18,334 nt of DNA from positions 1 to 18,334 of the forward strand of contig CALGTJ010000164.1 of the NCBI GenBank assembly GCA_937901435.1, read 5' to 3'. The position numbers were made by a program, and so were the translations under genes. This DNA is from an uncultured Rhodobacter sp. (lineage in GTDB: Bacteria; Pseudomonadota; Alphaproteobacteria; Rhodobacterales; Rhodobacteraceae). This document shows, one piece after another, positions 1,267 to 18,115 of this stretch. Below the pieces are notes generated by a model. It was given only the letters and a program-made list of their open reading frames with translations, made no database searches and was not told the DNA's origin. How positions within the stretch are numbered: position 1 is the first letter of the stretch; each line of letters starts with the position of its first letter.

Positions 1267-1441
1267 CGTTTATTACTGTCTGAACATCGATGCGCAAAGC
1301 CTTTCACCTTGCCCGCTTAAGGCGAGGGAATTTTCGCCATATACCGGATATAGTTGGAATTGGTTGCCTTGATACCTGTGTGAAGACCTCGCAAGCATGC
1401 GACGCGATTATCTTTGGGAAACACAACCACGGAGCCAACAT

Positions 1442-3607: not shown

Positions 3608-3622
3608 TCAGTGGTGGGTCTG
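3592..3622 (-). terminator. Perfect 8-bp inverted repeat at the end of the araC-type gene
   Basis: CAGACCCA at 3592-3599 is an exact reverse complement of TGGGTCTG at 3615-3622, with a 15-nt loop. The arm at 3615-3622 overlaps the last codons of the regulator gene and the loop contains its stop codon. No T run follows in either direction, so it is at best a weak terminator or an mRNA-end structure for the minus-strand gene. Confidence 0.35.
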
Positions 3623-4766: not shown

Positions 4767-5225
4767 ATGGATTTGCTGATAAACGGCGAAACGAAAACAG
4801 TCGCACTGCCAGACGAGACCCCGTTGCTTTGGGCGCTGCGTGACGGGCTGAATATCACAGGTGTCAAATATGGTTGTGGGATCGCCCAATGTGGGGCGTG
4901 CACGGTCCATATTGACGGAGAGGCCGTGCGCTCTTGCCAGATAGCCCTTGGTGATGTCTGGGGTGCAGTGACCACGATTGAAGGCCTCGGCCAACCCGAC
5001 GCCCTTCATGCCGTGCAACAGGCATGGATCGAACATCAGGTCGCCCAATGCGGATACTGCCAATCCGGCCAGATCATGCAGGCCGTTGATTTACTAAATG
5101 TGAACCCAACACCGACGGATGATGACATTGACGACGTGATGAGCGGAAATTTGTGCCGCTGCGCCACGTACCCCCGCATTCGCGCCGCTATCCACACGGC
5201 TGCGGCCAAGATACAGGCGGGCTAG
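4767..5225 (+). CDS. 2Fe-2S subunit of a two-component molybdenum hydroxylase (IorA-like)
   Basis: Small electron-transfer subunit of a xanthine-oxidase-family hydroxylase, 152 aa, matching isoquinoline 1-oxidoreductase alpha-type proteins. All eight cluster cysteines are present: plant-ferredoxin-type Cys37, Cys42, Cys45 and Cys57 ([16 protein letters not shown]), and the helical-domain cluster Cys95, Cys98, Cys130 and Cys132 (QCGYCQSGQ and GNLCRCATY). The ATG at 4767 is chosen because GGAGG (4755-4759) lies 7 nt before it and the protein then starts like its family. The open frame extends upstream to 4656, but that part crosses the operator repeats. It lies 3 nt before the molybdopterin subunit gene. 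It has no signal peptide and is probably exported folded with its Tat-targeted partner. The two-subunit form lacks an FAD subunit and usually passes electrons to a cytochrome or other membrane acceptor. Confidence 0.93.
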
Positions 5226-5228
5226 GGT

Positions 5229-7481
5229 ATGGGAACTGTTGGTAAAATTGCGCGTCGCACGTTTCTTGTAGGCTCTGTTGCCATCGCAGGTGGGGTTGTC
5301 TTCGGCATTCGGTCCTACAACGCGCGGCTGGAAAACCCGCTGACGGCACGGCTCGGTCAAGGCGAAGCGGCATTGACGCCCTACGTCAAAATCTCGGCTG
5401 ATGGCATCACCATCATCACACCGCGTGCCGAAATGGGCCAAGGGATACACACCACACTCGCGGCTATGGTTGCCGAGGAACTGGATGTGGAATTGGCAGA
5501 TATTCGCACAGAACACGGTCCGCCGTCGTCCGCCTATTACAACGGCGGTGTCGTCGAAGAAGGTTACCCGTTCCCTGCCACGGATATGGGCGTGGTGGCA
5601 GAGTTTGCACGGGCGCAGCGCGATATCCCAGCTGTTTTCCTGAGCTATCAAATCACAGGTGGGTCGACCTCGACCCATGATGGCTACGAAAAAATGCGCG
5701 CCGCGGGCGCCGTCGCGCGTGAGACATTGAAACTGGCGGGATCTGCCCGGACTGGCATTCCTGTCAGTTCCTTGACGACAAAAGCCGGGTCCGTGATTTT
5801 GCCCGATGGCCAGAAGATCCCTTATACGGACCTCGCTATGGAAGCCGCCGCGATTGATCCACCACCCACCCCCGCGCTGAGGCCGAAAGAGCAATGGCGC
5901 ATCCTTGGCAATTCGCAGGATCGTCTGGATGTGGTCGATAAATCCACAGGGGCGGCGATCTACGCCAGCGATGTTCGCCTGCCGGGCATGCGGTTTGGCG
6001 CTGTGCGGCGCAACCCGTATGTGCGCGGCATCCTGCTGTCGTTTGACGCGACAGAGGCGTTGTCGATGCCGGGCGTCGATGCTGTCGTTGATATCGGCAA
6101 CGGCGTTGTGGCTGTGGCAGAGTCCACATGGGCCGCGATGCAGGCTTTGGATGCGATCAAGTTTGACTGGGAAAACCCCGGCCTGCCGACGGATACGAAA
6201 AGCCATTCCGACGTGTTGGCACAGGCATTTACGCAAGACAACCTTGATTCGCGTCAGCGCGATGATGGCGATGTAGATGCAGCCCTTTCTGGTGCCGACA
6301 TCATAGAGGCCGAATACCGCGTCCCCTATCTGGCGCACGCAACGCTTGAACCCATGAATGCTGCAACCTGGCTGGACAAAGGGACGCTGCGCATCTGGAC
6401 GGGCACCCAAGGTCCAACCGTTGCGCGACGCGAAGCGGCAAAGGCTGCCGGTCTTGAAGAAGACCAAGTTGAGCTGACAACAACGCTGCTTGGTGGCGGA
6501 TTTGGGCGGCGCGGCGAGATGGATTTCGTGCAAATTGCGGCAAAGGTTGCTGTGGCCTTACCCGATCTGCCCCTCTTGGTCACCTACCCCCGCGAAGAGG
6601 ACATGTCGCGCGGTCCCTATCGTCCGGCCAGCATCGGGCGGTTCAGAGCGGCCGTGATCGACGGTCAGGTGAGCGCAGTTGATATCGCCTCGGCCTCGCC
6701 CAGTATCTTCAGAGGAATAACAGAGCGTGGTGGATCGCCCGCACCGATCCCTGGCTTTCTGCCCGACTTTACAATCTCACAGGCGCTATGGGATCAGCCC
6801 TACAGCATCAAGAACTACCGAACGAGCGCCTACCGTAGTCCGGATCTCTTGCCCGCAAGTTTCTGGCGGTCTGTCGGTGCCTCGCAGAATGCATTTTTCC
6901 ATGAGTGCATGATGGATGAGGTTGCGGTCGCGGCGGGACGTGACCCGGTTGAGATGAGGCTGGATCTGATAACCGATACCCCAAGCCGGAAAGTGCTGGA
7001 GGCTGTCGCGGAAATGTCTGACTGGGGCAGCGCCCCCGGCCCCAACCGTGCTCGCGGCGTCGCGTTTTCGTTGTGCTTTGGCGCACCGACCGCACAAGTG
7101 GTCGAGGTTGCGCAAACGCCAAACGGCCTGAAGGTCACACAGGCCTGGATCGCCGTAGACGTGGGCACGGCACTTGATCCGCGCAACATCGACGCGCAGC
7201 TGATTTCTGGTGTGAACTTTGGTCTGGGTGCGGCCATCGGTGAAAAAATCACGATCACTGACGGGATCGTCGATCAAAGCAACTATCACGATTACACGCC
7301 GATGCGGATGTATCAGGCGCCCACTATCACCACCCGTATCCTTGAAAATGCGCCTCATATTCGAGGCATCGGTGAACCGGGTACGCCCGCCGCTGCTCCC
7401 GCGTTGACCAATGCGGTGTTCGCCCTGACTGGCCAGCGCATCCGGACGTTGCCCTTGGGCGACACTGTTCAATTCATATAG
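5229..7481 (+). CDS. Molybdopterin-binding subunit of an IorB-like aldehyde/heterocycle hydroxylase, Tat-exported
   Basis: Catalytic subunit (750 aa) of a two-component molybdenum hydroxylase of the isoquinoline 1-oxidoreductase beta/aldehyde dehydrogenase type. It hydroxylates an aldehyde or electron-poor ring carbon with water-derived oxygen. The N-terminus carries a twin-arginine signal (Arg9-Arg10 in ARRTFLVG, then a hydrophobic run to about 26). Seen motifs are AEMGQGIHT (molybdopterin contact), LLGGGFGRRGEMDF, FWRSVGASQNAFFHE typical of the IorB group, and the catalytic Glu716 in GIGEPGTPAA. Its length is normal for IorB. It follows the 2Fe-2S gene by 3 nt and precedes genes for two membrane proteins and an exported cupin in the same direction. 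No XdhC-type maturation gene and no cytochrome c gene is present in the window, so the maturation factor and electron acceptor must be elsewhere or novel. The true substrate is unknown. Confidence 0.93.
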   Translation: MGTVGKIARRTFLVGSVAIAGGVVFGIRSYNARLENPLTARLGQGEAALTPYVKISADGITIITPRAEMGQGIHTTLAAMVAEELDVELADIRTEHGPPSSAYYNGGVVEEGYPFPATDMGVVAEFARAQRDIPAVFLSYQITGGSTSTHDGYEKMRAAGAVARETLKLAGSARTGIPVSSLTTKAGSVILPDGQKIPYTDLAMEAAAIDPPPTPALRPKEQWRILGNSQDRLDVVDKSTGAAIYASDVRLPGMRFGAVRRNPYVRGILLSFDATEALSMPGVDAVVDIGNGVVAVAESTWAAMQALDAIKFDWENPGLPTDTKSHSDVLAQAFTQDNLDSRQRDDGDVDAALSGADIIEAEYRVPYLAHATLEPMNAATWLDKGTLRIWTGTQGPTVARREAAKAAGLEEDQVELTTTLLGGGFGRRGEMDFVQIAAKVAVALPDLPLLVTYPREEDMSRGPYRPASIGRFRAAVIDGQVSAVDIASASPSIFRGITERGGSPAPIPGFLPDFTISQALWDQPYSIKNYRTSAYRSPDLLPASFWRSVGASQNAFFHECMMDEVAVAAGRDPVEMRLDLITDTPSRKVLEAVAEMSDWGSAPGPNRARGVAFSLCFGAPTAQVVEVAQTPNGLKVTQAWIAVDVGTALDPRNIDAQLISGVNFGLGAAIGEKITITDGIVDQSNYHDYTPMRMYQAPTITTRILENAPHIRGIGEPGTPAAAPALTNAVFALTGQRIRTLPLGDTVQFI

Positions 7482-7499
7482 CAGACATTGGAACAGATC

Positions 7500-8030
7500 A
7501 TGACAGACGGCCCCTACAAATTTCGCGTGAACGGTTTGGCAATCATTGCGTCAGCCGCATTTGCGGGGGCCAATCTGTTTATTGGTTTCTCCATGGGTGC
7601 CTATTGGCTGCGCCTTTCCCCTGCCGATTTTATCGCACAATTCTTCCCTCAGTTTAGCAATTTCCTATACACGATCATGCCACTTTTCCTATTGATGCCA
7701 GTTGGCCTGATCCTCTCGGCCCGGCTCGATAGGCATAATGCCCCGGCGCGGCGGAACTGGGTGATCGCGCTGTGGCTTTATCTGGCCGTCTCGCTGATCA
7801 CGATCTTCTATCACATGCCGCTCAACCTGCGCCTTGCGGCGGCGATCGGGTCGCCTGTCGCGGACGCGCTCGACTTTTACAAGAGCACCGCTCTGACTGG
7901 TTCGGTGACCGGGGAAAATTCTGCAACCATCCGCACACTTTGGTTGCTGGGCCATATCCCGCGAGTCCTGATCACGTTTGCCATCCCCGTTTATGCACTG
8001 CGCGCGCTTGCCGCCAGCGAAGCACGTTGA
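7500..8030 (+). CDS. DUF1772-like four-helix membrane protein
   Basis: Integral membrane protein of 176 aa with about four hydrophobic segments (roughly residues 12-32, 50-70, 85-105 and 145-170). The segment HMPLNLRLAAA and the later LWLLGHIPRVLITF resemble the N-P-x-N and W...H..R signatures of the DUF1772 (anthrone oxygenase-like) family; this is motif recall without an alignment. The ATG at 7500 is taken as start, though an in-frame TTG at 7488 is possible. It begins 18 nt after the molybdopterin subunit gene and is probably co-transcribed with it. It could be a membrane partner or electron-acceptor component for the exported hydroxylase, or an unrelated accessory enzyme; neither is shown by the sequence. 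Confidence 0.7.
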   Translation: MTDGPYKFRVNGLAIIASAAFAGANLFIGFSMGAYWLRLSPADFIAQFFPQFSNFLYTIMPLFLLMPVGLILSARLDRHNAPARRNWVIALWLYLAVSLITIFYHMPLNLRLAAAIGSPVADALDFYKSTALTGSVTGENSATIRTLWLLGHIPRVLITFAIPVYALRALAASEAR

Positions 8031-8077
8031 AGCGACACGCCCTTACGATACGCACCGCTGACAAAAGGATAAATCGG

Positions 8078-8560
8078 ATGAAAAACACGCTACCTCAAAC
8101 GCTAATGACCCTTGCTGCCTGCACCCTCGGCCTGCTGCTTGGCCTGCTGCTTGGCCTGCCAATCGCGGCGCAGGCACAAGACCCGCAAGTGCCAGAGGCC
8201 GGGATACGCGTTCCCGCCGATGAGGTGAAATTCGCCCCGTTCCCGGCACCCGGCGTTCAGAGTGTCGCGCTCTATGGAGGGGTCGGGACGGAAATGCCGA
8301 CGGCGATGACATCGCTGCTCGACCCGGCCACCTACGAAGTTCTGCCACACACGCATTCGCATGCGTATTGGGCGATGGTCGTGAAAGGCCGGATGCAGCA
8401 TTGGGAGCTTTCCGAACCAGATCGCGGGCCGGACCTTCTGCCCGGGTCCTATTGGTTCCAGCCCGGCGGCGTGCCCCATGCCGAAGATTGCCTTGGCCCC
8501 GAGGTTTGCCAGGTCTTCGTTGTCTTTGATGAACCGGCGGACTTTATGCCGGCGCAGTAG
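8078..8560 (+). CDS. Exported cupin-domain protein
   Basis: A 160-aa protein with a Sec signal peptide (hydrophobic core about 11-29, cleavage expected after AQA at 31-33) and a single small beta-barrel cupin domain. Likely metal ligands are His91, His93 and His95 in LPHTHSHAYW and His134 in GGVPHAED; Cys138 and Cys144 could form a disulfide. The usual Glu of cupin motif 1 is not obvious. An AGGA lies before the ATG at 8078; upstream in-frame codons overlap the preceding gene and are rejected. The signal-peptide core is built from a 12-bp tandem repeat (8129-8158). Its place in the hydroxylase unit and its export suggest a periplasmic role on the same compound. Specific activity is unknown. 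Confidence 0.8.
   Translation: MKNTLPQTLMTLAACTLGLLLGLLLGLPIAAQAQDPQVPEAGIRVPADEVKFAPFPAPGVQSVALYGGVGTEMPTAMTSLLDPATYEVLPHTHSHAYWAMVVKGRMQHWELSEPDRGPDLLPGSYWFQPGGVPHAEDCLGPEVCQVFVVFDEPADFMPAQ
8129..8158 (+). repeat. 12-bp tandem repeat in the cupin signal peptide
   Basis: GGCCTGCTGCTT occurs at 8129-8140 and 8141-8152, followed by a half copy GGCCTG at 8153-8158. The unit is in frame and encodes Gly-Leu-Leu-Leu, lengthening the hydrophobic core by four residues per copy. Confidence 0.85.
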
Positions 8561-8573
8561 ATCCGTTTCCCCC

Positions 8574-8603
8574 AAGGCCCTGCGGCACAAGGTGCCGGGC
8601 CTT
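8574..8603 (+). other. Strong intercistronic hairpin
   Basis: AAGGCCC (8574-8580) pairs with GGGCCTT (8597-8603). Inside, GGCAC (8584-8588) pairs with GTGCC (8592-8596) around the loop AAG, leaving a 3-nt TGC bulge on the left arm: twelve pairs in all. It lies 13 nt after the cupin stop and 21 nt before the next start. No T run follows, so it may protect the upstream message or partly attenuate transcription into the last gene of the unit. Confidence 0.6.
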
Positions 8604-8624
8604 GATTGATGCCAAGGAGCCTGC

Positions 8625-9038
8625 ATGACACCAACGATCAGATGGGCGATCACGCTTTTGATGGGCGCCACGATTTTTCGGGCTCAGACAGTGCTGTTCC
8701 TGCCCGAATTGCAGATGTTCGGCGGGATCGCGCCCGATGGCTGGTTCGGCCCGTGGCTCAGCGACGCGATCATCGGTTTTACATTACCGGTGATGCTCTA
8801 CCTGTTCTGGGTCAGGCGCAGCGTGGCAGTCTGGGGAGTGCTTGTCGCCTACAACGCCGTGGGGGCGTTCGACTATTCGCAGGGACTGATTACGCAGTTT
8901 ATCAATCCCCTGCCGGTGGAAATTGCCTCGACCGCGACGATCTATGTGGGTATCGGCCTTTTCATGGGATTTCAGCTTGTGGCGCTCGGGTTGCTGTTTC
9001 GTCGGGACGTCTTCGCCGACGTAATAGGCCGCCCCTGA
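8625..9038 (+). CDS. Small integral membrane protein, unknown function
   Basis: Hypothetical membrane protein of 137 aa with about four hydrophobic segments (near 5-25, 45-62, 67-82 and 103-125) joined by short loops. AAGGAG at 8614-8619, 5 nt before the ATG, is a good ribosome site. I do not recognise the family. It is the last gene in the unit begun by the 2Fe-2S subunit, separated from the cupin gene by a strong hairpin, so its expression may differ from that of the earlier genes. A role in anchoring or accepting electrons from the exported hydroxylase is possible but only inferred from position. Confidence 0.7.
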   Translation: MTPTIRWAITLLMGATIFRAQTVLFLPELQMFGGIAPDGWFGPWLSDAIIGFTLPVMLYLFWVRRSVAVWGVLVAYNAVGAFDYSQGLITQFINPLPVEIASTATIYVGIGLFMGFQLVALGLLFRRDVFADVIGRP

Positions 9039-9068
9039 TGCACGATCATCCTGCGCGCCCTGAGCATC

Positions 9069-9311
9069 GTGATATACGCTTGGTTGCTGTTCGCTGTGGT
9101 GGCCACCCAAGCCAGCTACGCAGAGATCAATTCCGGAACCGCATTCGGCTTTTCCACCCGCGAGGATCCGCAACCCGGTTTGGGCCCTTTCGGCAAGCGG
9201 ATCGATAGAACCCTTGGAAACCTCAAACCACCCCCAACGCCTTTAGAACCCGTTCTGGCGTCATGGGCATTTGGTCGAGCCGCCCAGCCAGCGGCCTCAA
9301 GGCATCGTTGA
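9069..9311 (+). CDS. Doubtful small exported protein or gene remnant
   Basis: An 80-codon frame opening with GTG, whose first 18 residues look like a Sec signal peptide (hydrophobic IYAWLLFAVV, then ASYA before Glu). It is in the same frame as the preceding membrane-protein gene, 30 nt beyond that gene's TGA, so readthrough would join the two. There is no ribosome site, and the last 90 bp overlap the end of the opposite-strand molybdopterin subunit gene. It could be a degraded gene or chance. Low confidence. Confidence 0.2.
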   Translation: MIYAWLLFAVVATQASYAEINSGTAFGFSTREDPQPGLGPFGKRIDRTLGNLKPPPTPLEPVLASWAFGRAAQPAASRHR

Positions 9312-11595
9312 CGGCGTTCATCACGGCAGCGGGGGCGCCTCCGGTGCCGGCTTCGCCTGCGCCTTTGGCCCCGAGGACAGACGTGCGGGTTGGCGTTTCC
9401 ACGTGTTTGACCACGATATCGGGCATTTCCCCGGCCATGGGCACAAGGTAGTCGGCCATGGTGGCGTTTTGCATTTGGCCGTCATCGGAATAGAGGATCT
9501 CTTCGTACAAGGCCCCGCCGATGCCCTGCACCACGCCGCCGCGCACCTGTTCGTCGACCAGCATGGGGTTGATGACGCGGCCACAATCCTCGACCGCCCA
9601 AAAGTTCAGGACCTGTGTGATCCCCGTCTCGACATCAACCTCCACATAGGCGGCCATCGCCCCATTGGTGAAGACAAAGGGAAAGTCGGTGACACGGTAG
9701 TGGCGCGTGGCGATCAGTTCGGGTTTCAGGTCCGATGGCAGTTCGTTGCCCCGGTAATAGACGGTCTTGGCAAGGTCACTTAGGGTCATACGGATACCCG
9801 TGGCGTCGGTCACAGCACCGTCGACGATATCAAGGCTGTCGGCCTCGGTTTGCAGCATCACGGCAGCAACGCCCAGCACCTGTTCCTTCAGCGCCAGAGC
9901 GCCTTGCAGCATCGCCTCGCCCCCGATCCCCGCGCCGCGAGAGGCCCATGTGCCACCGCCATAGGGCGTGGTGTCGGTGTCGCCGGTGGTGACCTTGACC
10001 CGTTCAATCGGGATACCAAAGATACCCGCGGCGATCTGGGCAAGGATGGCGTTGGTGCCTTGACCTTGCTCTGTGATCGACGAGGATATCCGCAAACCAC
10101 CGCCTGCATCCAGCCGCACCGTTGCGCCGTCCTGCGCTGATATGGGCGCGCCGCCGATGCCGTAGAACATGGGCGAGGGGTTGGTAACCTCGACCATGGA
10201 AACGAGGCCGATACCGCGATAGACGCCCCGCGCGCGCGCCTCTGCCTGATCGGCCAGCAGGGCGGTGTAGTCCATGGTTTCGGCCAGTGTTTCCAGCGAT
10301 TTCTGGTGTGACAGGTCGGCGAGTTTCATCCCCGAAGCGGACAGACGAGGATAGCTGTCGTCCGCCATCAGATTGCGGCGACGCATCTCGACCGGGTCAA
10401 TGCCCAGCGCGGCCCCGGCCTCGTCCAGTAGGCCATCAGCGACGGCCATGGCGATGGGGTGGCCGACGGCACGGTATTGGCACATCAGGTTCTTGTTCTG
10501 GAAAACGACGCGGGCCCGGGCGCGATAGTGGTCCATCACGTAAGGCGCACCGGTGAGGTTCAGCACCTGATTGGCCTCGATCGCTGAGGTGCGCGGGTAC
10601 ATGGAATAGGGGCCGATACCGGTGATGTCGTCAAAGTCGATGCCGACGATGGTGCCATCCGCCTTCACCCCCATGCGGGCCTTGATGATGTGGTCGCGGG
10701 CGTGGATGTCTGTGAGAAAGCTCTCGTTCCGGTCGGCGGCGAATTTTACCGGACGCCCCAGCAGTTTGGCGACGGCAGCGGTGGCGATCTCGTCCCCGTA
10801 AGTGTGGATCTTGATCCCGAAAGAGCCGCCCACGTCGCGCGCGATGACGCGCACGTTTTCCTCTGGCAGGTGCAGGTGTTTGCCAAGGATCGCCTGCATC
10901 ATATGCGGGGCCTGACCCGAATAGTGAAAGGTCAGCTGATCCTCTGACGGGTTGAATTCGACCACTACGGCGCGGGGTTCAAGGGTGACGCCGGTGTGAC
11001 GGCCAAAGGTGAAATCACGAGAGACGATGGTGACGCCGGGTTGCGCAAAAGCGGTGTCGATGTCGCCGACGTTTACGGTGCGCTCCCAAGCGACATTTGT
11101 GCCTAGCTCTGGATGGATGAGGTCTGCATCGGGCAAGAGGGCCGCCTCGACGTCGCAGACGGGATCCAAGGGCTCAAGGTCTGCCTCGATCAGGGCGACG
11201 GCGTCCTCTGCCAAGGCGCGGCTATGGGCGACGACCATGGCGATGGGTTCGCCCTGCCAGCGGGCGCGGTCCACGGCGAGGGGCATTTGTGGCGGGCTTT
11301 GCAGGCCCGCAAGATGGGTAAGCGTGCCGACATAGGGTGTCACATGGTCGATCAGATCCGTGCCAACATAGACCGCGACAACACCGGGCGCAGCACGGGC
11401 GGCGTCGAGGTCAAAACCGTCGATACGGGCATGGGCATAAGGAGAGCGCAGGAAGGCGGCGTGCAGCATCCGGGGCAGTTGCAGATCGTCCACATAGGCG
11501 CCGCGTCCCTCTAGCAGGCGGGCGGCGTCGGCGCGGGGGACAGAGCGCCCTATGTAGGAGTTCGGGCGATCAAAGATGGTCAGGGGGCCGGTCAT
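9223..11595 (-). CDS. CoxL-like molybdopterin-binding large subunit of a three-component hydroxylase
   Basis: Catalytic subunit of 790 aa of a xanthine dehydrogenase/CO dehydrogenase-family enzyme, which hydroxylates a carbon of an aldehyde or N-heterocycle in the cytoplasm. The ATG at 11595 overlaps the 2Fe-2S gene stop by 4 bp (ATGA); a longer open frame to 11931 only reads through the neighbour gene out of frame. Seen motifs are GRGAYVDDLQLPRMLHAAFLRSPYAHARI at the start of the a/b hammerhead domain, RDVGGSFGIK, EQGQGTNAILAQIAAG, and the catalytic Glu748 in KGAGEAGTGGAP. The active-site loop reads QYRAVGH (residues 373-379), replacing AYRCSFR of true CO dehydrogenase and AYRGAGR of form II proteins; Ala376 stands where the CO-active Cys would be. 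It is therefore not a CO dehydrogenase. The substrate is unknown. Confidence 0.94.
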   Translation of the reverse strand: MTGPLTIFDRPNSYIGRSVPRADAARLLEGRGAYVDDLQLPRMLHAAFLRSPYAHARIDGFDLDAARAAPGVVAVYVGTDLIDHVTPYVGTLTHLAGLQSPPQMPLAVDRARWQGEPIAMVVAHSRALAEDAVALIEADLEPLDPVCDVEAALLPDADLIHPELGTNVAWERTVNVGDIDTAFAQPGVTIVSRDFTFGRHTGVTLEPRAVVVEFNPSEDQLTFHYSGQAPHMMQAILGKHLHLPEENVRVIARDVGGSFGIKIHTYGDEIATAAVAKLLGRPVKFAADRNESFLTDIHARDHIIKARMGVKADGTIVGIDFDDITGIGPYSMYPRTSAIEANQVLNLTGAPYVMDHYRARARVVFQNKNLMCQYRAVGHPIAMAVADGLLDEAGAALGIDPVEMRRRNLMADDSYPRLSASGMKLADLSHQKSLETLAETMDYTALLADQAEARARGVYRGIGLVSMVEVTNPSPMFYGIGGAPISAQDGATVRLDAGGGLRISSSITEQGQGTNAILAQIAAGIFGIPIERVKVTTGDTDTTPYGGGTWASRGAGIGGEAMLQGALALKEQVLGVAAVMLQTEADSLDIVDGAVTDATGIRMTLSDLAKTVYYRGNELPSDLKPELIATRHYRVTDFPFVFTNGAMAAYVEVDVETGITQVLNFWAVEDCGRVINPMLVDEQVRGGVVQGIGGALYEEILYSDDGQMQNATMADYLVPMAGEMPDIVVKHVETPTRTSVLGAKGAGEAGTGGAPAAVMNAVNDALRPLAGRLDQMPMTPERVLKALGVV

Positions 11596-12071
11596 GTTTT
11601 GGCTCCTGTCTCGATCACGTCGCAGATCGCTTCGACAATCGACTGATAGCCGGTACAGCGACAGTAATTGCCAGAAATATGCTGGCGGATGGCGGTGCGG
11701 TCGGCGGTGCCACCCTTGTCGATATATTCCAGTGCACTGGCGAGCATTCCCGGCGTGCAAAAGCCGCATTGCAGGGCATTGTGCTCGGTAAAGGCAACGC
11801 GCAGGGCGGCGCTGCGTCCGCTGTCGGCGAGGCCTTCGATGGTGGTGACCTCTTGCCCGTCGGCTTGCACCGCGAGCATCAGACAGCCCCGCACGGGCGC
11901 ACCTGCGATTTCGACCGTGCAAGCGCCGCAAACGCCATGTTCGCAGCCCACATGAGAGCCGGTCAGTTGCGCCTCTGTGCGGATGAAATCGACGAGGTTC
12001 ATGCGGACAGGGACGGTGCGGGTGATCGCCTCGCCGTTAATGGTGATCGTGACGTCTTGTGTCTGGCTCAT
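11592..12071 (-). CDS. 2Fe-2S subunit (CoxS-like) of the three-component hydroxylase
   Basis: Electron-transfer subunit of 159 aa carrying both [2Fe-2S] clusters of a CoxMSL-type enzyme. The cysteines are Cys43, Cys48, Cys51 and Cys63 (VGCEHGVCGACTVEI, then RGC) for the ferredoxin-like domain, and Cys102, Cys105, Cys137 and Cys139 (QCGFCTPGM and NYCRCTGY) for the helical domain. It transfers electrons from the molybdenum site to FAD. It is coupled on both sides by 4-bp ATGA overlaps, with the FAD subunit gene upstream (12068-12071) and the large subunit gene downstream (11592-11595). This gives the order M-S-L and tight stoichiometric translation. Confidence 0.95.
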   Translation of the reverse strand: MSQTQDVTITINGEAITRTVPVRMNLVDFIRTEAQLTGSHVGCEHGVCGACTVEIAGAPVRGCLMLAVQADGQEVTTIEGLADSGRSAALRVAFTEHNALQCGFCTPGMLASALEYIDKGGTADRTAIRQHISGNYCRCTGYQSIVEAICDVIETGAKT

Positions 12072-12892
12072 ACTGTCATCCCCGCCAATGCGCGCCGCAG
12101 CACGACCCCTGCGTAGTGTTGTTTCGTTGCTGCCGAGGCGTTCAGGTCGCTGTCAAAGTCGATCTCTGACAGGCGCGCGACAGCAGCGTCGATATCGGTA
12201 GGATCGGCTGATAGCACATCCTCGGCCCCGGTCGCCCGGATGGCGCGATCTGCGACGCTGAAAAACGCGATGCGGAACTGGCCTTGGCGTTGGGCGATGG
12301 CGACACCGGCCATGGCGTAATCTCCGTGGCGTCGGGCGATTTCGTAAAAGCCGAAGTGATCACCCGGTGCGGCGACGGGAATGGAGACTGAGGTGAGCAA
12401 CTCGGTCGCCCTGCGGGCGGTCTCGTAGACGCCCAGAAAGAAGTCATCGACGGGGATGACACGTGTGTCCTCGGCGCTTTGCACAGTGATTTCAGCACCA
12501 AGGGCCAGCATGACCGCAGGCATTTCGGCAGCAGGATCGGCCAGCGCCAGAGAACCGCCGATCGTGCCACGGTTACGGATGGCGGAATGGGCGATATAGG
12601 GCAGGGCCTGCGCGATCAGGGGCGCGTGGATCAGTTCGGTTGCTTGTTCCAACGTCGCATATCGGGTCATTGCACCGATTGTCAGTTGGTCGCCCGTGAC
12701 AGACACACCCGCCAGATCGGAAATCCCGTTGAGATCGACCAAAAGCTCTGGCTGGGCGATGCGAAAGTTCATCATTGGCATCAGACTTTGCCCGCCTGCC
12801 AGCGCGGCGCTTTCAATGCTTTCATCCGCCAGCAAGGCCAAGGCCGCCGCAACGGTATCAGGCCGTTCGTATCGAAAATCAGCAGCCTTCAT
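12068..12892 (-). CDS. FAD-binding subunit (CoxM-like) of the three-component hydroxylase
   Basis: Flavoprotein medium subunit of 274 aa, first gene of the M-S-L unit. The two FAD-binding signatures of the family are seen: LAGGQSLMPMM (residues 31-41) and TIGGSLALADPAAE (110-123). A CO-dehydrogenase-type C-terminal domain follows (about 165-270). The ATG at 12892 has GGGGGGAG just upstream. The subunit passes electrons from the iron-sulfur clusters to a soluble acceptor such as NAD+ or to a quinone. The promoter must lie in the 127-bp gap shared with the divergent peroxiredoxin gene, which holds one copy of the shared box. Confidence 0.94.
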   Translation of the reverse strand: MKAADFRYERPDTVAAALALLADESIESAALAGGQSLMPMMNFRIAQPELLVDLNGISDLAGVSVTGDQLTIGAMTRYATLEQATELIHAPLIAQALPYIAHSAIRNRGTIGGSLALADPAAEMPAVMLALGAEITVQSAEDTRVIPVDDFFLGVYETARRATELLTSVSIPVAAPGDHFGFYEIARRHGDYAMAGVAIAQRQGQFRIAFFSVADRAIRATGAEDVLSADPTDIDAAVARLSEIDFDSDLNASAATKQHYAGVVLRRALAGMTV

Positions 12893-12930
12893 CGGCTCTC
12901 CCCCCTGTCGATCTTGTGACCGACACCTCT

Positions 12931-12959
12931 TTGTTTTGTGTAAGTTATCAATCTATAAA
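12931..12959 (+). promoter_or_regulatory. Candidate sigma-70-type promoter of the peroxiredoxin gene
   Basis: TTGTTT (12931-12936) and TATAAA (12954-12959) are separated by 17 nt. The -10 element is 60 nt before the peroxiredoxin ATG and overlaps box 2. Expected spacing, moderate match. Confidence 0.45.
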
Positions 12960-12962
12960 CAA
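12948..12962 (+). promoter_or_regulatory. Candidate shared regulatory box 2
   Basis: TCAATCTATAAACAA matches box 3 (TCAATCGATAAATAA, 14716-14730) at 13 of 15 positions. It lies between the divergent FAD-subunit gene (55 nt away) and peroxiredoxin gene (57 nt away), and overlaps the candidate -10 element of the latter. A repressor bound here could act on both directions (inference). Confidence 0.5.
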
Positions 12963-13019
12963 ACATCAAGGTAAACGAGTCACCGTCTGGCTTTTTGCCG
13001 CTTTCAGGAAGGAACAAAC

Positions 13020-13538
13020 ATGAGCACGAAACCAATGCCTGACACTCAGGCCCCCACGCTGTCCCTGCCTTTGGTGGGCGGCGGCATGTGGTCGCTTGCG
13101 GATCAAACGCCAGAAACATTCACGATGGTCGTGTTTTATCGCGGGCTGCATTGCCCGGTGTGCAATGGGTATCTGAACAAGCTGAACGATCTGATGGGGG
13201 CCTATACCGAGGCCGGATTTTCAGTTGTCGCTGTGTCGATGAATGATCAGGCCACGGCGGAAAAATCCAAGGCGGACTGGGGTTTGACCAATATCCCCGT
13301 CGCCTATGATCTAAGCGAGGCGGATGCGCGGGCGTGGGGGCTATATCTGACAAAGGGCATCAATGACGTTGAGGCCGAGACATTTGTCGAGCCCGGTACG
13401 TTCTGGATCCGCCCGGACGGTCGCCTGTATCTGATCGACATTGCGAATATGCCTTGGCCGCGTCCTGATCTGGAGTTTCTGCTGTCCAAGGTTCCGCTGA
13501 TTGCCGAGCGGAATTATCCAGCACGCGGGACAGCCTAG
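13020..13538 (+). CDS. Peroxiredoxin-like (AhpC/TSA) protein
   Basis: Thioredoxin-fold protein of 172 aa in the AhpC/TSA superfamily, expected to reduce peroxides in the cytoplasm. The active site is FYRGLHCPVCN with Cys45 and Cys48, a CxxC in place of the classical PxxxT/SxxC, as found in peroxiredoxin-like families. The later segment FWIRPDGRLYLID is the typical cis-Pro-proximal strand region. A strong AGGAAGGA ribosome site precedes the ATG. It faces away from the CoxMSL-type operon and shares its control region, which suggests protection from peroxide or superoxide produced by molybdenum and flavin hydroxylases. Its stop codon overlaps the stop of the TetR gene on the other strand within CTAG (13535-13538). 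Confidence 0.88.
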   Translation: MSTKPMPDTQAPTLSLPLVGGGMWSLADQTPETFTMVVFYRGLHCPVCNGYLNKLNDLMGAYTEAGFSVVAVSMNDQATAEKSKADWGLTNIPVAYDLSEADARAWGLYLTKGINDVEAETFVEPGTFWIRPDGRLYLIDIANMPWPRPDLEFLLSKVPLIAERNYPARGTA

Positions 13539-14200
13539 GTTCCGGTCACCAACCGTTTCAACCCGTCCAGAAGGCTGTCTATACCGAAACTAATAGCATT
13601 GTTGTTCGGGATGTTGGGCTGTTTGCCGTAAACAATCTTGATGACACCAAAGTAAAAGATGCCGCCATGGATCACCCAGGCGGCGTCAATTTCTTCTTCG
13701 CTGGCCGGTTCCGGGGACATGCCGGCCTCGAACCGGACCTCTGCGATGATCGGTTCCAGAATGCGCGAGACGACGACACTCATATACCGCGTGTTGATCT
13801 CAACGCCTTTAAGGCCGGAATAGAGGTAGATGCGCATCCAGTCTGGGTGAAAGATCGCGTCGGTATAATGTCCATAAAATTCGATCAGTCGCTCGCGCAG
13901 CGGGCGGGATCGGTCGGCAAACAAAGCTTCCCATTCCGGGTTCCAGCGGCGCACATAGACGGCGTCATAGACCTCTGAAATCAGATCCTGTTTAGAGGGG
14001 AAATAACGGTAGAGCAGCGGCTGGGTGACCCCAAGACGGCGCGCCAGTTCGCGGGTCGAGCTTTCGAACCCTTCTTCGGCAAAGAGCTTGATCGACTTCT
14101 GAATGAACTCTTCACGTCGTTGGTCCGAGGACAGACGGCGGCGCGGCTTTGCGTCTGCACCGCCCGCCTCTTGGGCATTCTCAGGCATCTTGCCACTCAT
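13535..14200 (-). CDS. TetR/AcrR-family transcriptional regulator
   Basis: One-component regulator of 221 aa. The N-terminal helix-turn-helix domain spans about residues 31-77, with EEGFESSTRELARRLGV and TQPLLYRYFPSKQDLISEVY showing the standard recognition helix and YxxFxSKxxL signature. The remaining 140 residues form a variable ligand-binding helical domain. The ATG at 14200 is chosen; alternatives are TTG at 14206 and ATG at 14188. The gene overlaps the end of the OsmC gene by 20 bp and is probably co-transcribed with it. It is the only regulator inside the CoxMSL/cyclase/monooxygenase region and is the obvious candidate for binding the shared box. Its ligand is unknown. Confidence 0.9.
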   Translation of the reverse strand: MSGKMPENAQEAGGADAKPRRRLSSDQRREEFIQKSIKLFAEEGFESSTRELARRLGVTQPLLYRYFPSKQDLISEVYDAVYVRRWNPEWEALFADRSRPLRERLIEFYGHYTDAIFHPDWMRIYLYSGLKGVEINTRYMSVVVSRILEPIIAEVRFEAGMSPEPASEEEIDAAWVIHGGIFYFGVIKIVYGKQPNIPNNNAISFGIDSLLDGLKRLVTGT

Positions 14201-14672
14201 CACCAATCTTCAACCTGTGTCCTACCTCTAAACCTTGTGACAGAGTCTGTTCGATAAAACACCCCTTTTTGGCAGCGGCCAGCAGGCGGTGCTGATCATC
14301 GGGCGTCGCGTCTGTATCAAGGGTCACGTCCAGATCGAACCCGACGGGCGCGGTGACATAGGGGTCGTTTCCTGTCTGCACGCCTTCCCAGTGCAGGCGC
14401 GCACGCACCTCGACATCGCGCAATTCAATGTGCAGACGTTTGGCGAAAGCACGGATCTGGGTCATCAGGCAACCGGTCAACGCGGCGGTGAAAAGCGCCA
14501 GAGGCGGCGGGGCGGTGCCGTCCCCCCCATGGAACGGACCCTCGTCGGTTGCCAGTTCAAAGCTCTCTTTCATCATCGGCCATTCCACCGAAATATCATT
14601 GCGCATCTTGCCAGAGGACCGGCCGACACCCTCAAACACCACCTCAAATCGTTTTTCCGGTCCAGTTGTCAT
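14181..14672 (-). CDS. OsmC-family protein
   Basis: OsmC/Ohr-fold protein of 163 aa. The two conserved cysteines of the family are seen as Cys68 in LTGCLM and Cys138 in KKGCFIEQTL, and the domain begins with the RNDISVEWPMM strand. Ohr-type members reduce organic hydroperoxides in the cytoplasm; many OsmC-like proteins have no proven substrate. GAGGAT before the ATG at 14672 is a fair ribosome site. It is the first gene of a two-gene unit with the TetR regulator and diverges from the cyclase gene across 87 bp that carry box 3 and an inverted GATTGA/TCAATC pair. Its presence beside a peroxiredoxin gene suggests that the pathway generates oxidants. Confidence 0.9.
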   Translation of the reverse strand: MTTGPEKRFEVVFEGVGRSSGKMRNDISVEWPMMKESFELATDEGPFHGGDGTAPPPLALFTAALTGCLMTQIRAFAKRLHIELRDVEVRARLHWEGVQTGNDPYVTAPVGFDLDVTLDTDATPDDQHRLLAAAKKGCFIEQTLSQGLEVGHRLKIGDEWQDA

Positions 14673-14689
14673 AGGTATCCTCGAATTCT

Positions 14690-14721
14690 GATTGACTTGG
14701 CCTCCAGTTAATTTTTCAATC
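14690..14721. repeat. Inverted GATTGA/TCAATC pair in the divergent control region
   Basis: GATTGA (14690-14695) and its exact complement TCAATC (14716-14721) flank 20 nt between the OsmC and cyclase genes. The right half is the first part of box 3. The arrangement would let a dimeric repressor contact both promoters. Six-base arms can also arise by chance. Confidence 0.35.
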
Positions 14722-14730
14722 GATAAATAA
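14716..14730 (+). promoter_or_regulatory. Candidate shared regulatory box 3
   Basis: TCAATCGATAAATAA lies 29 nt before the cyclase ATG and 43 nt from the OsmC start. It is the closest match to the consensus of the four boxes and contains a central ATCGAT palindrome. No -35 element sits 16-18 nt upstream of its GATAAA, which favours an operator over a plain -10 element here. Confidence 0.5.
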
Positions 14731-14759
14731 GCAAGAACTAAATGCTAAAGGAGGGACCC

Positions 14760-15716
14760 ATGGGCAAACTGACCCGTGACGATATTTACGCAACAGCCAA
14801 AGAGCTTTCGAACCACGGGCGATGGGGGGCGGACGATCAGATCGGCACACTCAACAATATCTCGCCACAGGATATCATCGACGCAGGCAAGCTGATCAAA
14901 AAGGGCAAGACCTTTGCACTGGGGCTGAACCTGAAACAAAAGATCCAGTCCGGGCTGTTCGGCGGACGCTGGAACCTGATCCATCAGATGCTGGCGACAG
15001 GGACGGATGCGGTTCAGGGCGAGCAGGACGGCGACGGCCGCGCCTATCTGCGTTATGCGGATGATGCGATCAACGTGCCCTGTCAGGGGTCAACGCAATG
15101 GGATGCGCTTTGCCACATCTTTTTGGATGACCAGATGTACAACGGCTTTCCAGCGACCGATGTGACGGTAAACGGGGCCAAGAACCTTGGCATAGAACAT
15201 GTGCGCGACAAGATGGTCGGGCGCGGTGTGCTGCTGGATATCGCCCGCTGGAAGGGCAAGGACAGTCTGGACGACGGCGAGCCGATCTATAACGCCGATC
15301 TGGATGCTTGCGCCAAGGCGCAGGGGGTCGAAATCCGCAAGGGTGACTTTGTCATCGTGCGCACCGGGCATCAGGAACGCTGTCTGGCCAGTGATGACTG
15401 GACCGGTTACGCGGGTGGCGATGCACCCGGACTGGCGTTCGAGACGGCGCGCTGGATCAAGCAGCACGACATTGCCGCGATCTGTGCCGACACATGGGGC
15501 TGCGAGGTGCGCCCGAATGAGACGGACGAGGCCAATCAGCCGTGGCATTGGGTCGTCATCCCTGCCATCGGCATTTCCATGGGGGAAATCTTTTACCTCA
15601 AGGACCTCGCCGAGGATTGCGCAGAGGACGGGGTGTACGAGTTCTTCTTTACCGCCCCCCCGCTGCATATCCCCGGCGCGGCAGGATCGCCGATCAATCC
15701 GCAGGCGATCAAGTAG
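14760..15716 (+). CDS. Cyclase-family hydrolase (kynurenine formamidase/isatin hydrolase superfamily)
   Basis: Predicted metal-dependent hydrolase of 318 aa in the cyclase superfamily, whose members cleave amide or lactam bonds (kynurenine formamidase, isatin hydrolase). The ATG at 14760 is preferred because AAAGGAGGG lies 5 nt before it; an ATG at 14742 would precede that site. The family metal motif HxGTHxDxPxH appears as QGSTQWDALCH (residues 109-119). Asp115 and His119 are kept, but both early His positions are Gln (109 and 113). The length and the downstream FVIVRTGHQ and AADTWGCEVRPNE-like segments fit the longer cyclase subgroup. It ends 3 bp from the converging monooxygenase gene. In context it could open a hydroxylated N-heterocycle ring or cleave an amide intermediate (inference). 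Confidence 0.88.
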   Translation: MGKLTRDDIYATAKELSNHGRWGADDQIGTLNNISPQDIIDAGKLIKKGKTFALGLNLKQKIQSGLFGGRWNLIHQMLATGTDAVQGEQDGDGRAYLRYADDAINVPCQGSTQWDALCHIFLDDQMYNGFPATDVTVNGAKNLGIEHVRDKMVGRGVLLDIARWKGKDSLDDGEPIYNADLDACAKAQGVEIRKGDFVIVRTGHQERCLASDDWTGYAGGDAPGLAFETARWIKQHDIAAICADTWGCEVRPNETDEANQPWHWVVIPAIGISMGEIFYLKDLAEDCAEDGVYEFFFTAPPLHIPGAAGSPINPQAIK

Positions 15717-15719
15717 TCG

Positions 15720-16907
15720 CTAAATCACAACAGCAGTGTCTCGCATCACGGTCTCTATATCGGGATGCGAGCACCCGTCTGCGTTCTCGCCCTCCGGCCC
15801 GTCAAAAATCAACCCACCCAGTCGCTGCGAGCGTTCGTAGGCGATCAGAGACGCCGCGACCCGTTCGTCGGAATAGGCGGTCAACGCCTCTGGAATCGCA
15901 CCATGTTCCAGATGGCGCGCAAGCGCCAGCGCATCCAGCGCCGCCTTGGTGACGCCCATCCCCACATGGGGCCGCGCGACGCAGGCCGCATCCCCGGCCA
16001 GCGCCACATGTCCCTGCCCCATCACAGGCGAATGGTGGTCGTAGATGGGGGTGAAAAAGGGTCGCTCGCTGACCTTCAGGATCTCGACAAAGGGCGTTGG
16101 CAGACGGGTTGCCGCGTCTTGTTCCATGCGTTGCAGCACATCTTTGCGCACCAAGGGCGGCGGTATCGATATCTCGTGCCTCTGCCCGCTGGCATCGGTC
16201 AGCATATCGTCAAGATCGCCCTGCAGCACCCGCGCATACCAGACAAAGTTATAACGCAAATGCCCCGGACGCAGGTCATTGTCCGGCCCCGCGATGGGAT
16301 AGCCGATGATTTGCGTGCCGTTGGGAATGAAAAAGCCGAAGGTGTCAAAGACCTGACGATGGACCTCCTCTGAAAGGTCCGCCTCTTTCGCCAAAGCCCG
16401 CCAGACCACATAGCCTGCATAATCCGGTTTCACCTCTGGCAGCATCTGGGCGCGGATCGCAGAGCGAAATCCATCTGCCCCGATCAGCAGATCGGCCTGC
16501 TCTGTGCGGCCGTCCTCAAAGATCGCGGTCACCCCGTCAACGGCCTCTTGGTAGCCGACAATCGCACGTCCCAGATGATAGTGCCCCTCTGGGATGATCT
16601 CTCGCAGAACCCGGTGCATCCGATCCCACGAGGTCACGACCTGAGGGTACTCCAGCGTTCGCACCCGATCACCAGCACTGTCATAGGCCACGCGCTCGTT
16701 GACCTGTACGCCCAGATCCTTGGTATTTGCCCCCACGGCCTCTAATCCAGAGATCAACGGTTCGTGGGTCACAATCCCCGCGCCGCGTCCGGCCAGTTCA
16801 ACGCCGGTGCGCTCGTAGACATCTACCTGCCATCCTGCGCGCAGCAACGCACAAGCGGCAAAAAGCCCCCCGATCGAGCCGCCGCTGATAATCGCCCTGC
16901 CTGTCAC
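15720..16907 (-). CDS. FAD-dependent aromatic ring monooxygenase, DhpH-like
   Basis: Class A flavoprotein hydroxylase of 395 aa, using NAD(P)H and O2 to hydroxylate an aromatic or heteroaromatic ring. Seen motifs are the dinucleotide fold IISGGSIGGLFAA (residues 6-18), the DG motif DLLIGADGFRS (139-149), and the GD motif ALAGDAACVARPHVGMGVTKAALDA (302-326 region). The RPH and GxxKA pattern after GD recalls 2,6-dihydroxypyridine 3-hydroxylase of nicotine catabolism. The start is GTG at 16907, with AGGAGAGG about 5 nt upstream. It is a single-gene unit converging on the cyclase gene. A promoter with box 4 lies 60-93 nt upstream. Other class A hydroxylases (6-hydroxynicotinate, salicylate or urate types) remain possible, so the substrate is not fixed. 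Confidence 0.9.
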   Translation of the reverse strand: MTGRAIISGGSIGGLFAACALLRAGWQVDVYERTGVELAGRGAGIVTHEPLISGLEAVGANTKDLGVQVNERVAYDSAGDRVRTLEYPQVVTSWDRMHRVLREIIPEGHYHLGRAIVGYQEAVDGVTAIFEDGRTEQADLLIGADGFRSAIRAQMLPEVKPDYAGYVVWRALAKEADLSEEVHRQVFDTFGFFIPNGTQIIGYPIAGPDNDLRPGHLRYNFVWYARVLQGDLDDMLTDASGQRHEISIPPPLVRKDVLQRMEQDAATRLPTPFVEILKVSERPFFTPIYDHHSPVMGQGHVALAGDAACVARPHVGMGVTKAALDALALARHLEHGAIPEALTAYSDERVAASLIAYERSQRLGGLIFDGPEGENADGCSHPDIETVMRDTAVVI

Positions 16908-16967: not shown

Positions 16968-16982
16968 GTATTTATCGTTCGA
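16968..16982 (-). promoter_or_regulatory. Candidate shared regulatory box 4
   Basis: On the minus strand this reads TCGAACGATAAATAC, matching box 3 at 12 of 15 positions. It is 60 nt before the monooxygenase start and in the same orientation to that gene as boxes 1 to 3 are to theirs. Confidence 0.45.
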
Positions 16983-17000
16983 TCACAACAAGCAGGTCAA
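16971..17000 (-). promoter_or_regulatory. Candidate promoter of the flavin monooxygenase gene
   Basis: On the minus strand TTGACC (17000-16995) is followed after 18 nt by GATAAA (16976-16971). The -10-like element lies inside box 4. Good -35 match, modest -10 match. Confidence 0.5.
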
Positions 17001-17197
17001 GCACCAACCACAACCAATGCGACCCAAGGGTTGTGAAATCCGACAACCTGCAAAAAAAGATCAGGAAACAAGGACTGATTGAGCTAATTCCATCGTCAGA
17101 CACCCCTGTACACCGCGCCTGTGATGGGGCTAGGTGACACTGTGCCCCGTAGGGCAAACAGGCGAAACAGACGATCAGACAGAGAGAGATGCCAGCC

Positions 17198-18115
17198 ATG
17201 ACAGCGCAGATTATCGACGGCAAAGCCTTTGCAGCCACGGTTCGGGGAAAAGTTGCCGACCATGTGACCCGAATCAAAGCCGAGGCAGGCATCACCCCCG
17301 GTCTGGCCGTTGTGCTGGTTGGCGAAGATCCGGCGAGTCAGGTTTATGTGCGCTCCAAAGGCAAGATGACGACAGAGGTCGGCATGAACAGCTATGAGCA
17401 CAAGCTGGATGTCGACACCAAAGAGGCCGATCTGCTGGCGTTGATCTACACGCTGAACAAGGATGCAGACGTGCATGGCATCCTTGTGCAACTGCCGCTG
17501 CCGGGGCATCTGAACTCTGATCTGGTGATCAACTCGATTGACCCCGCCAAGGATGTGGACGGGTTTCATATTTCCAATGTTGGCCTGCTGGGCACCGGGC
17601 AGAAATCCATGGTTCCCTGCACCCCGCTGGGCTGTCTGATGATGCTGCGCGACCACCACGGGTCGTTGTCGGGGATGAATGCGGTTGTTTTGGGCCGCTC
17701 AAACATCGTGGGCAAGCCGATGGCGAACCTGCTGTTGGGCGACAGCTGTACGGTGACCATCGCCCACAGCCGCACCAAAGATCTGCCCGACGTGGTGCGC
17801 GGTGCCGATATCGTCGTCGCTGCCGTTGGCCGCCCCGAGATGGTCATCGGCGACTGGATCAAGCCCGGCGCGACGGTAATCGACGTGGGCATCAACCGGA
17901 TTGACGCACCCGAAAAAGGCACAAATGAAGATGGCAGCGTCAAGACCCGCCTCGTCGGTGACGCCCACTTTGAAAGCTGCGCTGCTGTTGCCGGAGCGAT
18001 CACGCCTGTGCCCGGCGGCGTTGGCCCGATGACCATCGCTTGCTTGCTGGCCAACACCCTGACCGCCTGTTGCCGCGCGAACGGTCTGGAAGAGCCCGAC
18101 GGGCTTACGGCTTAG
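17198..18115 (+). CDS. folD: Bifunctional methylenetetrahydrofolate dehydrogenase/methenyl-THF cyclohydrolase
   Basis: FolD converts 5,10-methylene-THF to 10-formyl-THF through methenyl-THF in the cytoplasm, with NADP+ as usual cofactor. The product is 305 aa, slightly longer than the common 285-300. Diagnostic segments are [19 protein letters not shown], with the catalytic Tyr and Lys; [29 protein letters not shown]; the [15 protein letters not shown] loop; and the signature [15 protein letters not shown]. The ATG at 17198 gives the usual MTAQIIDGK start; an ATG at 17189 would add three residues and sits too close to the AGAGAGAG run to use it well. Codon use and content are ordinary housekeeping. 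No promoter could be assigned in the 280-bp gap upstream. Functional link to the catabolic genes is not evident, though one-carbon units from demethylation could feed it. Confidence 0.97.

Follow-up and report, generated by a model that had tools for sequence, protein, structure and literature searches.

The window, the whole 18,334-nucleotide stretch of contig CALGTJ010000164.1 from an uncultured Rhodobacter sp., encodes at 9223–16907 a molybdenum (Mo) hydroxylase, a flavin monooxygenase and a cyclase-family hydrolase together with a TetR-family regulator and two small redox proteins. A preliminary description had proposed that these genes form one unit for the breakdown of an N-heterocycle, possibly a new one. 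The locus therefore raises the question of whether the genes belong together and, if so, what they degrade. We are close to certain that they are part of a genuine, conserved and co-regulated catabolic regulon. That this is a TetR-controlled regulon for an aromatic N-heterocycle is the explanation that we favour, although with much less assurance.

The genes first listed are real open reading frames (ORFs) at the coordinates given here, with their main Pfam domains above the curated cut-offs (MoCoBD_1/2, Fer2_2, FAD_binding_5, AhpC-TSA, TetR_N, OsmC, Cyclase, FAD_binding-like and FAD_binding_3). The Mo hydroxylase is encoded by a minus-strand operon with overlaps of 4 bp, transcribed in the order MoM (FAD subunit, 12068–12892), MoS (2Fe-2S subunit, 11592–12071) and MoL (large subunit, 9223–11595), all assigned on ORF and domain evidence. 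The start of MoL is at 11595, not 11931; the 902-aa ORF is too long, and the start at MTGPLT gives 790 aa. Divergent from MoM is a gene for an AhpC/TSA-family thiol redox protein (13020–13538, plus strand; ORF, domain and relatives). The genes for an OsmC-family protein (14181–14672) and the TetR regulator (13535–14206), each assigned by ORF and domain, overlap on the minus strand and are divergent from the PF04199 cyclase-family hydrolase, CYC (14757–15716, plus strand). CYC is convergent with the FAD-dependent monooxygenase, FMO (15720–16907, minus strand). A further gene (136–1212, plus strand; ORF and domain) encodes the solute-binding protein of a TRAP transporter, DctP, with seven other genes between it and the Mo operon.

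A 20-bp palindrome with 18 fixed positions, TATTTATCGNNCGATAAATA, links these genes. The consensus was drawn by eye from three promoter sites in the window. At a threshold of at least 13/18 positions the window has four sites only, each ahead of a cluster promoter: before dctP (39–58, 16/18), in the divergent MoM/AhpC promoter region (12942–12961, 13/18), in the divergent OsmC-TetR/CYC promoter region (14710–14729, 15/18) and 62 bases upstream of the FMO gene (16969–16988, 15/18). Ten composition shuffles, which kept base composition in 300-base blocks only, contained a mean of 0.0 sites. Because the consensus comes from the window's own sites, this count is not independent and the relatives, which share ancestry too, are the test. 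Twelve whole genomes, selected as CYC carriers and scanned with up to three mismatches, contain 35 sites, and a reversed control gave no match. Thirty-one of the 35 are at DctP/DctQ, MoM/AhpC/OsmC2, CYC/OsmC or FMO promoters, with the DctP/DctQ site in the same place as in the window. The other four lie before a HisD-SDR (short-chain dehydrogenase/reductase) run (genome G001), by a pair of c16 and metallo-beta-lactamase genes (G007) and elsewhere in G002 and G021. The operator is upstream of CYC in 65 of 81 loci (window included), compared with 46 of 1620 pieces drawn at random from these loci, a control that may itself contain true sites.

The site precedes CYC in 52 of the 54 loci with TetR and in 12 of the 26 without, which suggests that TetR is the likely binder of the operator, on the evidence of sequence. 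This assignment falls short of proof because rhizobial loci have the site with no TetR near by. Nine loci lack both TetR and the operator: SAR116 (L032–L034 and L036), the alphaproteobacterium L028, Granulosicoccaceae (L037, L042 and L047) and Chromatiales (L041); L036 and L042 offer little upstream sequence for the search. Four units, namely DctP, MoM-MoS-MoL with divergent AhpC, OsmC-TetR with divergent CYC, and FMO, thus share one operator. Separately, locus L113 (7361–13145) has the operator before a run of genes for an HpsN-like dehydrogenase, an SDR, a Meth_synt_2-like protein and BKACE, followed by a second luciferase-type gene. The c16 gene, for a protein of about 151 aa with no Pfam match (L020:12815–13270 and 17 other loci), often adjoins FMO or stands head-to-head with it at a common operator.

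A comparison of gene order in related genomes, a check proposed at the outset, shows that the order of the cluster recurs. It covers the best 80 of the 305 loci with a CYC relative in a pattern-based list, and includes marine Rhodobacterales and SAR116. Window proteins were counted by tblastn within 10 kb of CYC at fixed thresholds, and since 34/80 loci are shorter than 20.9 kb these are minimum counts. TetR is near CYC in 53/80, MoM in 50/80, OsmC in 34/80, AhpC in 33/80, FMO in 33/80 and DctP in 23/80 loci. MoL is present at 50% identity or above in 45/80 loci and at 65% or above in 35/80, and at the latter level it occurs together with FMO and CYC in 20/80. AraC, radical SAM, cupin, two hypotheticals, FolD and IorB (at least 40%) were found in 0/80 loci at the thresholds used. 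DctP recurs near CYC, unlike these remaining neighbours, and is therefore counted as a member. The genes named in the preliminary description are all members, but the unit is larger and takes in the dctP gene that it had omitted.

Two relatives show the fuller arrangement. In G001 a supercluster runs through genes for HIBDH-like (3-hydroxyisobutyrate-dehydrogenase-like), GFO/IDH, LysR, flavin reductase, c32, c16, FMO, PuuE-like and PcaD-like proteins and continues with a luciferase-type monooxygenase, DctM, DctQ, DctP, MoLSM, TetR, OsmC, CYC and GST (family names here come from representatives). In L041, a Chromatiales contig, a stretch of about 12 kb encodes DctP, luciferase-type, PuuE-like, HIBDH-like, HAD, MoLSM, CYC, OsmC and FMO proteins. 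The luciferase-type, PuuE-like and PcaD-like partners are absent from the window; their genes may be located further left on the contig. Rhizobial MoMSL-ABC-CYC-HisD-SDR clusters (e.g. L059: CYC 79%, MoL 58%) also have the operator before MoM and CYC. They differ in ABC rather than TRAP uptake, and the L059 genome has no FMO match at the threshold used. On pDSHI05 of Dinoroseobacter shibae (L004, 7967–12465) there is a MoL operon, 61% identical, with TRAP and TetR genes and with neither CYC nor FMO in the region covered; this is perhaps a sister system for a different substrate.

Co-inheritance was examined in 198 genomes, the family of G001. CYC (at least 76%) is present in 12 of the 198 genomes, and precisely this set also has FMO (at least 57%; Fisher p 1.9e-19, at identity thresholds picked once the gaps were visible). 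Three of the 12 (G001, G002 and G007) were already known as CYC carriers. MoL (at least 74%) is in 11 of the 12 and in no other genome, ten others having only a relative at 52–62%; DctP (at least 69%) is in 10 of the 12, and the AhpC-like protein (at least 58%) in eight plus G157. For MoL, FMO and DctP a subset of the candidates in each genome was scored. Two partners from the relatives follow the same pattern: the luciferase-type monooxygenase is in 12/12 CYC genomes (once as a fragment at a contig end) and in G085, G095 and G157, and the PuuE-like hydrolase (at least 60%) is in 12/12 (once at 60%) and, at 60–61%, in G047 and G107. Set aside were G166 (CYC 53%, one stop), MoL at 52–62%, G176 (luciferase-type 41%), PuuE-like proteins below 60% and G157 (DctP 62%, AhpC 61%, luciferase-type 66%, no CYC). 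Linkage alone is inadequate to explain the co-occurrence of FMO and CYC, because in G021 and G002 the two genes sit on separate contigs and in G007 some 370 kb separates them. The HpsN-like HisD was dropped as a pathway part, since it is in 100/198 genomes and so general to the family, though one operator precedes a HisD-SDR run. The preliminary description would have been abandoned if its genes did not co-occur elsewhere, and the opposite was found. Taken together, gene order, co-occurrence and the common operator bear out its proposal that the genes form one unit, and the core genes of the four units are co-inherited.

What the unit degrades has to be approached through its enzymes. MoL belongs to the xanthine dehydrogenase family in the wide sense, together with its partner subunits (MoCoBD, Fer2_2 and FAD_binding_5), and is of CoxL/QorL type. 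The window sequence has GAGEAG, as do all displayed variants (36/47 rows), and the Glu of GAGE is presumably the catalytic residue. The best solved relative is quinoline 2-oxidoreductase (E 1e-136). At the position of QorL Trp331, which we take to be an active-site residue, all 47 rows (window included) have Arg. The CoxL active-site motif, which we take to be AYRCSFR, is absent; MoL reads QYRAVGHP and scores 430.6 bits against a CoxL equivalog cut-off of 991. Identity as a CO dehydrogenase was rejected on motif and cut-offs.

FMO scores above the cut-off of NCBIfam PRK07236 (NF005566; 441 vs 333 bits). Among solved proteins the best match is 2,6-dihydroxypyridine hydroxylase (DHPH; 2vou, E 2.9e-47, 165 bits), followed by a tropone monooxygenase at 73 bits. 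The term DhpH-like is apt at family level only. A tree with characterized enzymes, as had been proposed, places FMO and its relatives in their own 9-row clade (support 100/100) with DHPH elsewhere, and orthology with DHPH was rejected on this basis; DHPH is on a long branch, with other long branches outside the 9-row clade, so its own placement is unsure. A GIVTH stretch is found in 14/14 aligned clade members, in the Methylobacterium protein of L001 and in one Paraburkholderia protein, and DHPH, one Rhodococcus and one Azospirillum protein have Gln in place of the His. FMO relatives are beside or near Mo hydroxylases in L001 and L123. In the latter, from Azospirillum oryzae (4878–10071), the FMO (42%) is directly 3' of a two-subunit Mo hydroxylase with cytochrome c, so that these two enzyme classes are paired independently there.

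CYC is a PF04199 protein (79.2 bits against a gathering score of 23.1). Its best solved relative, the uncharacterized 5ibz (E 4e-65), has the same QGSTQWDAL stretch. The metal-binding motif of the KynB, isatin hydrolase and PKC type within PF04199 is, we assume, HxGTHxD, and the PKC sequence reads HTGTHID. In CYC this becomes QGSTQWDALCH. The Gln pair is in 80/81 rows displayed, and the Asp and the last His of the motif are retained. The AlphaFold model of CYC (mean pLDDT 59, shallow alignment) was not used.

In DctP, the position of what we take to be the conserved ligand-clamping Arg of carboxylate-binding TRAP receptors is Gly or Ala in 24/24 aligned rows (window and 23 relatives), as judged by alignment with 4nap and 4pgn, which have Arg. 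DctP thus lacks this mark of a carboxylate-binding receptor, and the replacement fits a ligand bound other than through a carboxylate. A CPVC motif is present in the AhpC-like protein, which has only a sub-threshold hit to a SelL-related redox model (33 bits against a cut-off of 120), and the OsmC protein passes the cut-off of an OsmC-related NCBIfam model. That these two proteins handle peroxide is a family-level guess. The PuuE-like protein of the relatives is similar to the allantoinase PuuE (3cl6, E 7e-26).

The preliminary description had set this combination apart from known clusters, which does not hold. The pAO1-type nicotine operon kdhL-pkc-dhph (Arthrobacter sp. ZXY-2 pZXY21, L120) has the same three enzyme classes side by side, so this kind of combination has a precedent. 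The order on pZXY21 is a 794-aa Mo-hydroxylase subunit (annotated hypothetical), a stress protein, a 'polyketide cyclase', 2,6-dihydroxypyridine hydroxylase, a hypothetical protein and a nitrilase-type amidase; the 794-aa subunit is taken as KdhL from its position, its size and parts of PMC6214936. Window and plasmid proteins are similar over nearly their full length (MoL/KdhL 32%, MoM/KdhM 41%, CYC/PKC 30% and FMO/DHPH 34% identity). The window differs in having an FMO of another clade, a CYC without the His pair, and a TRAP receptor and TetR operator. Nit, DHPONH and NBOR were not recognized among the window genes, nor was an omega-amidase (Nit/HpoI) among these or the annotated recurrent partners. 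According to sections of PMC6214936, PKC belongs to PF04199, is expressed in a nicotine-dependent manner and is hypothesized to hydrolyse the N1-C6 bond of 2,3,6-trihydroxypyridine, and HpoH of the 2-hydroxypyridine degrader Rhodococcus rhodochrous PY11, which acts on trihydroxypyridine, is 77% similar to PKC. The PY11 pathway is thus likened to the window via PKC and not directly; a counterpart of its amidase HpoI was not recognized in the window genes or annotated recurrent partners. Another parallel is the nicotinate regulon of Aspergillus nidulans. There nicotinate is hydroxylated by Mo and FAD enzymes (HxnS and HxnV) before HxnM, a relative of PuuE, opens a cyclic imide, a set like that in the relatives of the window. 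That pathway is unlike the present one in being eukaryotic, its partners are only partly alike, and no PF04199 step is described in the portions of PMC9304392 drawn on here. No paper describing the cluster was found in the open-licence PMC literature, a weak absence given that restriction. The regulon thus combines familiar enzyme classes in an arrangement of a familiar kind, with variants of its own.

With PKC, HpoH and HxnM as precedents, serial hydroxylation followed by hydrolytic ring opening is the best model, and the enzyme set fits the oxidative breakdown of an aromatic N-heterocycle that was first proposed. TetR would act as a repressor, with the substrate or an intermediate as the inducer that releases it. 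The TRAP transporter would import the heterocycle, probably one bound other than through a carboxylate; the Mo hydroxylase would place water-derived oxygen on a ring carbon adjacent to the nitrogen, and FMO, using O2 and NAD(P)H, would introduce another hydroxyl. Once the ring is polyhydroxylated (in its lactam tautomer), CYC could hydrolyse the N-C bond within it, in the manner suggested for PKC and HpoH with 2,3,6-trihydroxypyridine, and the AhpC-like and OsmC proteins may scavenge peroxide or quinone-like by-products. In relatives the luciferase-type monooxygenase with flavin reductase, the PuuE/cyclic-imidase-like and the PcaD-like hydrolases would continue the route. The substrate may, but need not, be new.

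Several observations weigh against an N-heterocycle regulon. The enzyme activities and the substrate are predicted from sequence and context. MoL is far from every solved enzyme (quinoline oxidoreductase 461 bits, CoxL 411), FMO is outside the DHPH clade, and CYC has Gln for two metal-binding His of the KynB, isatin hydrolase and PKC type. CYC is 30% identical to PKC over 302 columns and 35–49% identical to other uncharacterized PF04199 groups, so PKC is not its special relative. Operators are kept with no TetR near by in the 12 loci mentioned above, some of them rhizobial, and the Fisher p values for co-occurrence, 3e-15 to 2e-19, ignore shared ancestry. In a second family (188 genomes, FMO rows entered down to about E 1e-90), FMO is in 6/15 genomes that have CYC at 75% or above (p = 0.78), within 30 kb in 2/15. 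A CYC clade at 63–67% in the same family is associated with FMO (45/58 genomes, p = 4e-15; 24/60 copies within 30 kb), so the CYC-FMO pair does recur there. Some CYC proteins belong to a different route, encoded next to HpsN-like, SDR and branched-chain-amino-acid-type ABC genes, and in rhizobial loci CYC adjoins HpsN-like and SDR genes. Finally, the best match of the luciferase-type partner, a weak one, is 3,6-diketocamphane monooxygenase (E 5e-20), which could mean a ring without nitrogen.

This last point leads to the alternative that survives best, although we consider it unlikely: a regulon for a compound with no nitrogen in its ring, such as an aromatic or furanic aldehyde or alcohol, a terpenoid ketone or a lactone. 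The Mo enzyme would then oxidize an aldehyde, FMO and the luciferase-type enzyme would be a ring hydroxylase and a Baeyer-Villiger enzyme, and CYC and the PcaD-like protein would be lactonases. Besides the diketocamphane match, one PcaD-like protein of the relatives passes the enol-lactonase cut-off, and HpsN-like, SDR, BKACE and 3-hydroxyisobutyrate-dehydrogenase-like genes are near by in relatives. However, the HpsN-like gene is general in the family, the PuuE-like hydrolase, from a C-N-bond family, co-occurs in 12/12 genomes, and it is a pyridine hydroxylase that leads the solved relatives of FMO (165 vs 73 bits for the next).

The other catabolic alternatives are special cases of an N-heterocycle regulon. 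The known 2,6-dihydroxypyridine route (DHPH, ring opening by PKC or HpoH, omega-amidase) has its three classes matched in the window at the identities given above. It is nevertheless improbable here: FMO has His where DHPH has Gln in GIVxx and is outside its clade, CYC is without the HxxxHxD pair, and a Nit-type amidase and a side-chain hydrolase were not recognized among the window genes. As FMO clade, metal motif and amidase all fail to match, we do not assign the window to the trihydroxypyridine route. Oxidation of a purine or methylxanthine at C-8, as typified by caffeine dehydrogenase and trimethylurate monooxygenase, is equally improbable. Its support comes from a purine-type cluster on pMRAD01 of Methylobacterium radiotolerans (L001: MoL 60%, MoS 56%, FMO 43% with GIVTH, TetR 38%), where these genes stand beside uraD, uraH and an NCS1 transporter. 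That cluster is unlike the window in its uraD/uraH and ABC transporter genes and has no cyclase within the stretch covered. Its FMO is outside the 9-row clade, the window FMO scores 102 bits against a cut-off of 500 for the urate hydroxylase HpxO model (NF033623), and uraH and uraD were not recognized in the window or the annotated recurrent partners of relatives.

Catabolism of homarine or trigonelline, N-methylpyridinium compounds that are common in the sea, is less probable again. The luciferase-type monooxygenase and flavin reductase of relatives resemble the trigonelline ring-opening pair, and the carriers include marine Rhodobacterales and SAR116. Ruegeria pomeroyi consumes homarine according to parts of PMC12817926, but this consumer is not named among the best 80 of the 305 loci. 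A redox-stress or detoxification locus, to which the recurrent AhpC-like, OsmC and GST genes might point, is the least probable of all, as the TRAP receptor, Mo hydroxylase, FMO and CYC are all behind the same operator.

The rest of the window appears to be unrelated. Next after dctP is a gene for a radical SAM protein (1397–3217), probably B12-binding and under every listed NCBIfam cut-off. A second, two-subunit Mo hydroxylase of IorA/IorB type (4770–7481), has a twin-Arg-like start on its large subunit. Genes for small hypotheticals and a cupin come after it, and an AraC gene (3608–4606) is divergent from it. This hydroxylase has no operator in the window and is not conserved alongside the cluster in the 80 loci. 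The IorAB-like hydroxylase, radical SAM, AraC, cupin and folD genes were rejected as members, being operator-free and found in 0/80 loci at the thresholds applied. The folD gene (17189–18115) adjoins FMO, probably by chance since a counterpart is in 0/80 loci; in the pAO1 nicotine clusters folD is part of a methyl-group branch, as sections of PMC6214936 have it.

The operator and co-inheritance, beyond adjacency, give a parts list for an uncharacterized degradation pathway of marine bacteria, some of which are cultured. Flavimaricola marinus CECT 8899 (L017, genome G001) and Histidinibacterium lentulum B17 (L015, genome G007) are two such strains, each with CYC, MoL, FMO and DctP. Tentatively, and at somewhat less than even chances, it may be an undescribed TetR-controlled pathway for a common marine N-heterocycle, found in marine Rhodobacterales, SAR116 and some Gammaproteobacteria. 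It would have three oxygenating enzymes (Mo hydroxylase, FAD hydroxylase and luciferase-type monooxygenase), two unrelated ring-amide hydrolases, a PF04199 site of Gln/Gln/Asp and not His/His/Asp, and a TRAP receptor that lacks the carboxylate clamp and binds a neutral ligand. If the substrate is such a compound, the regulon would tie a dissolved organic nitrogen pool to its consumers, and CYC would offer an initial test of a PF04199 subfamily whose metal site is altered.

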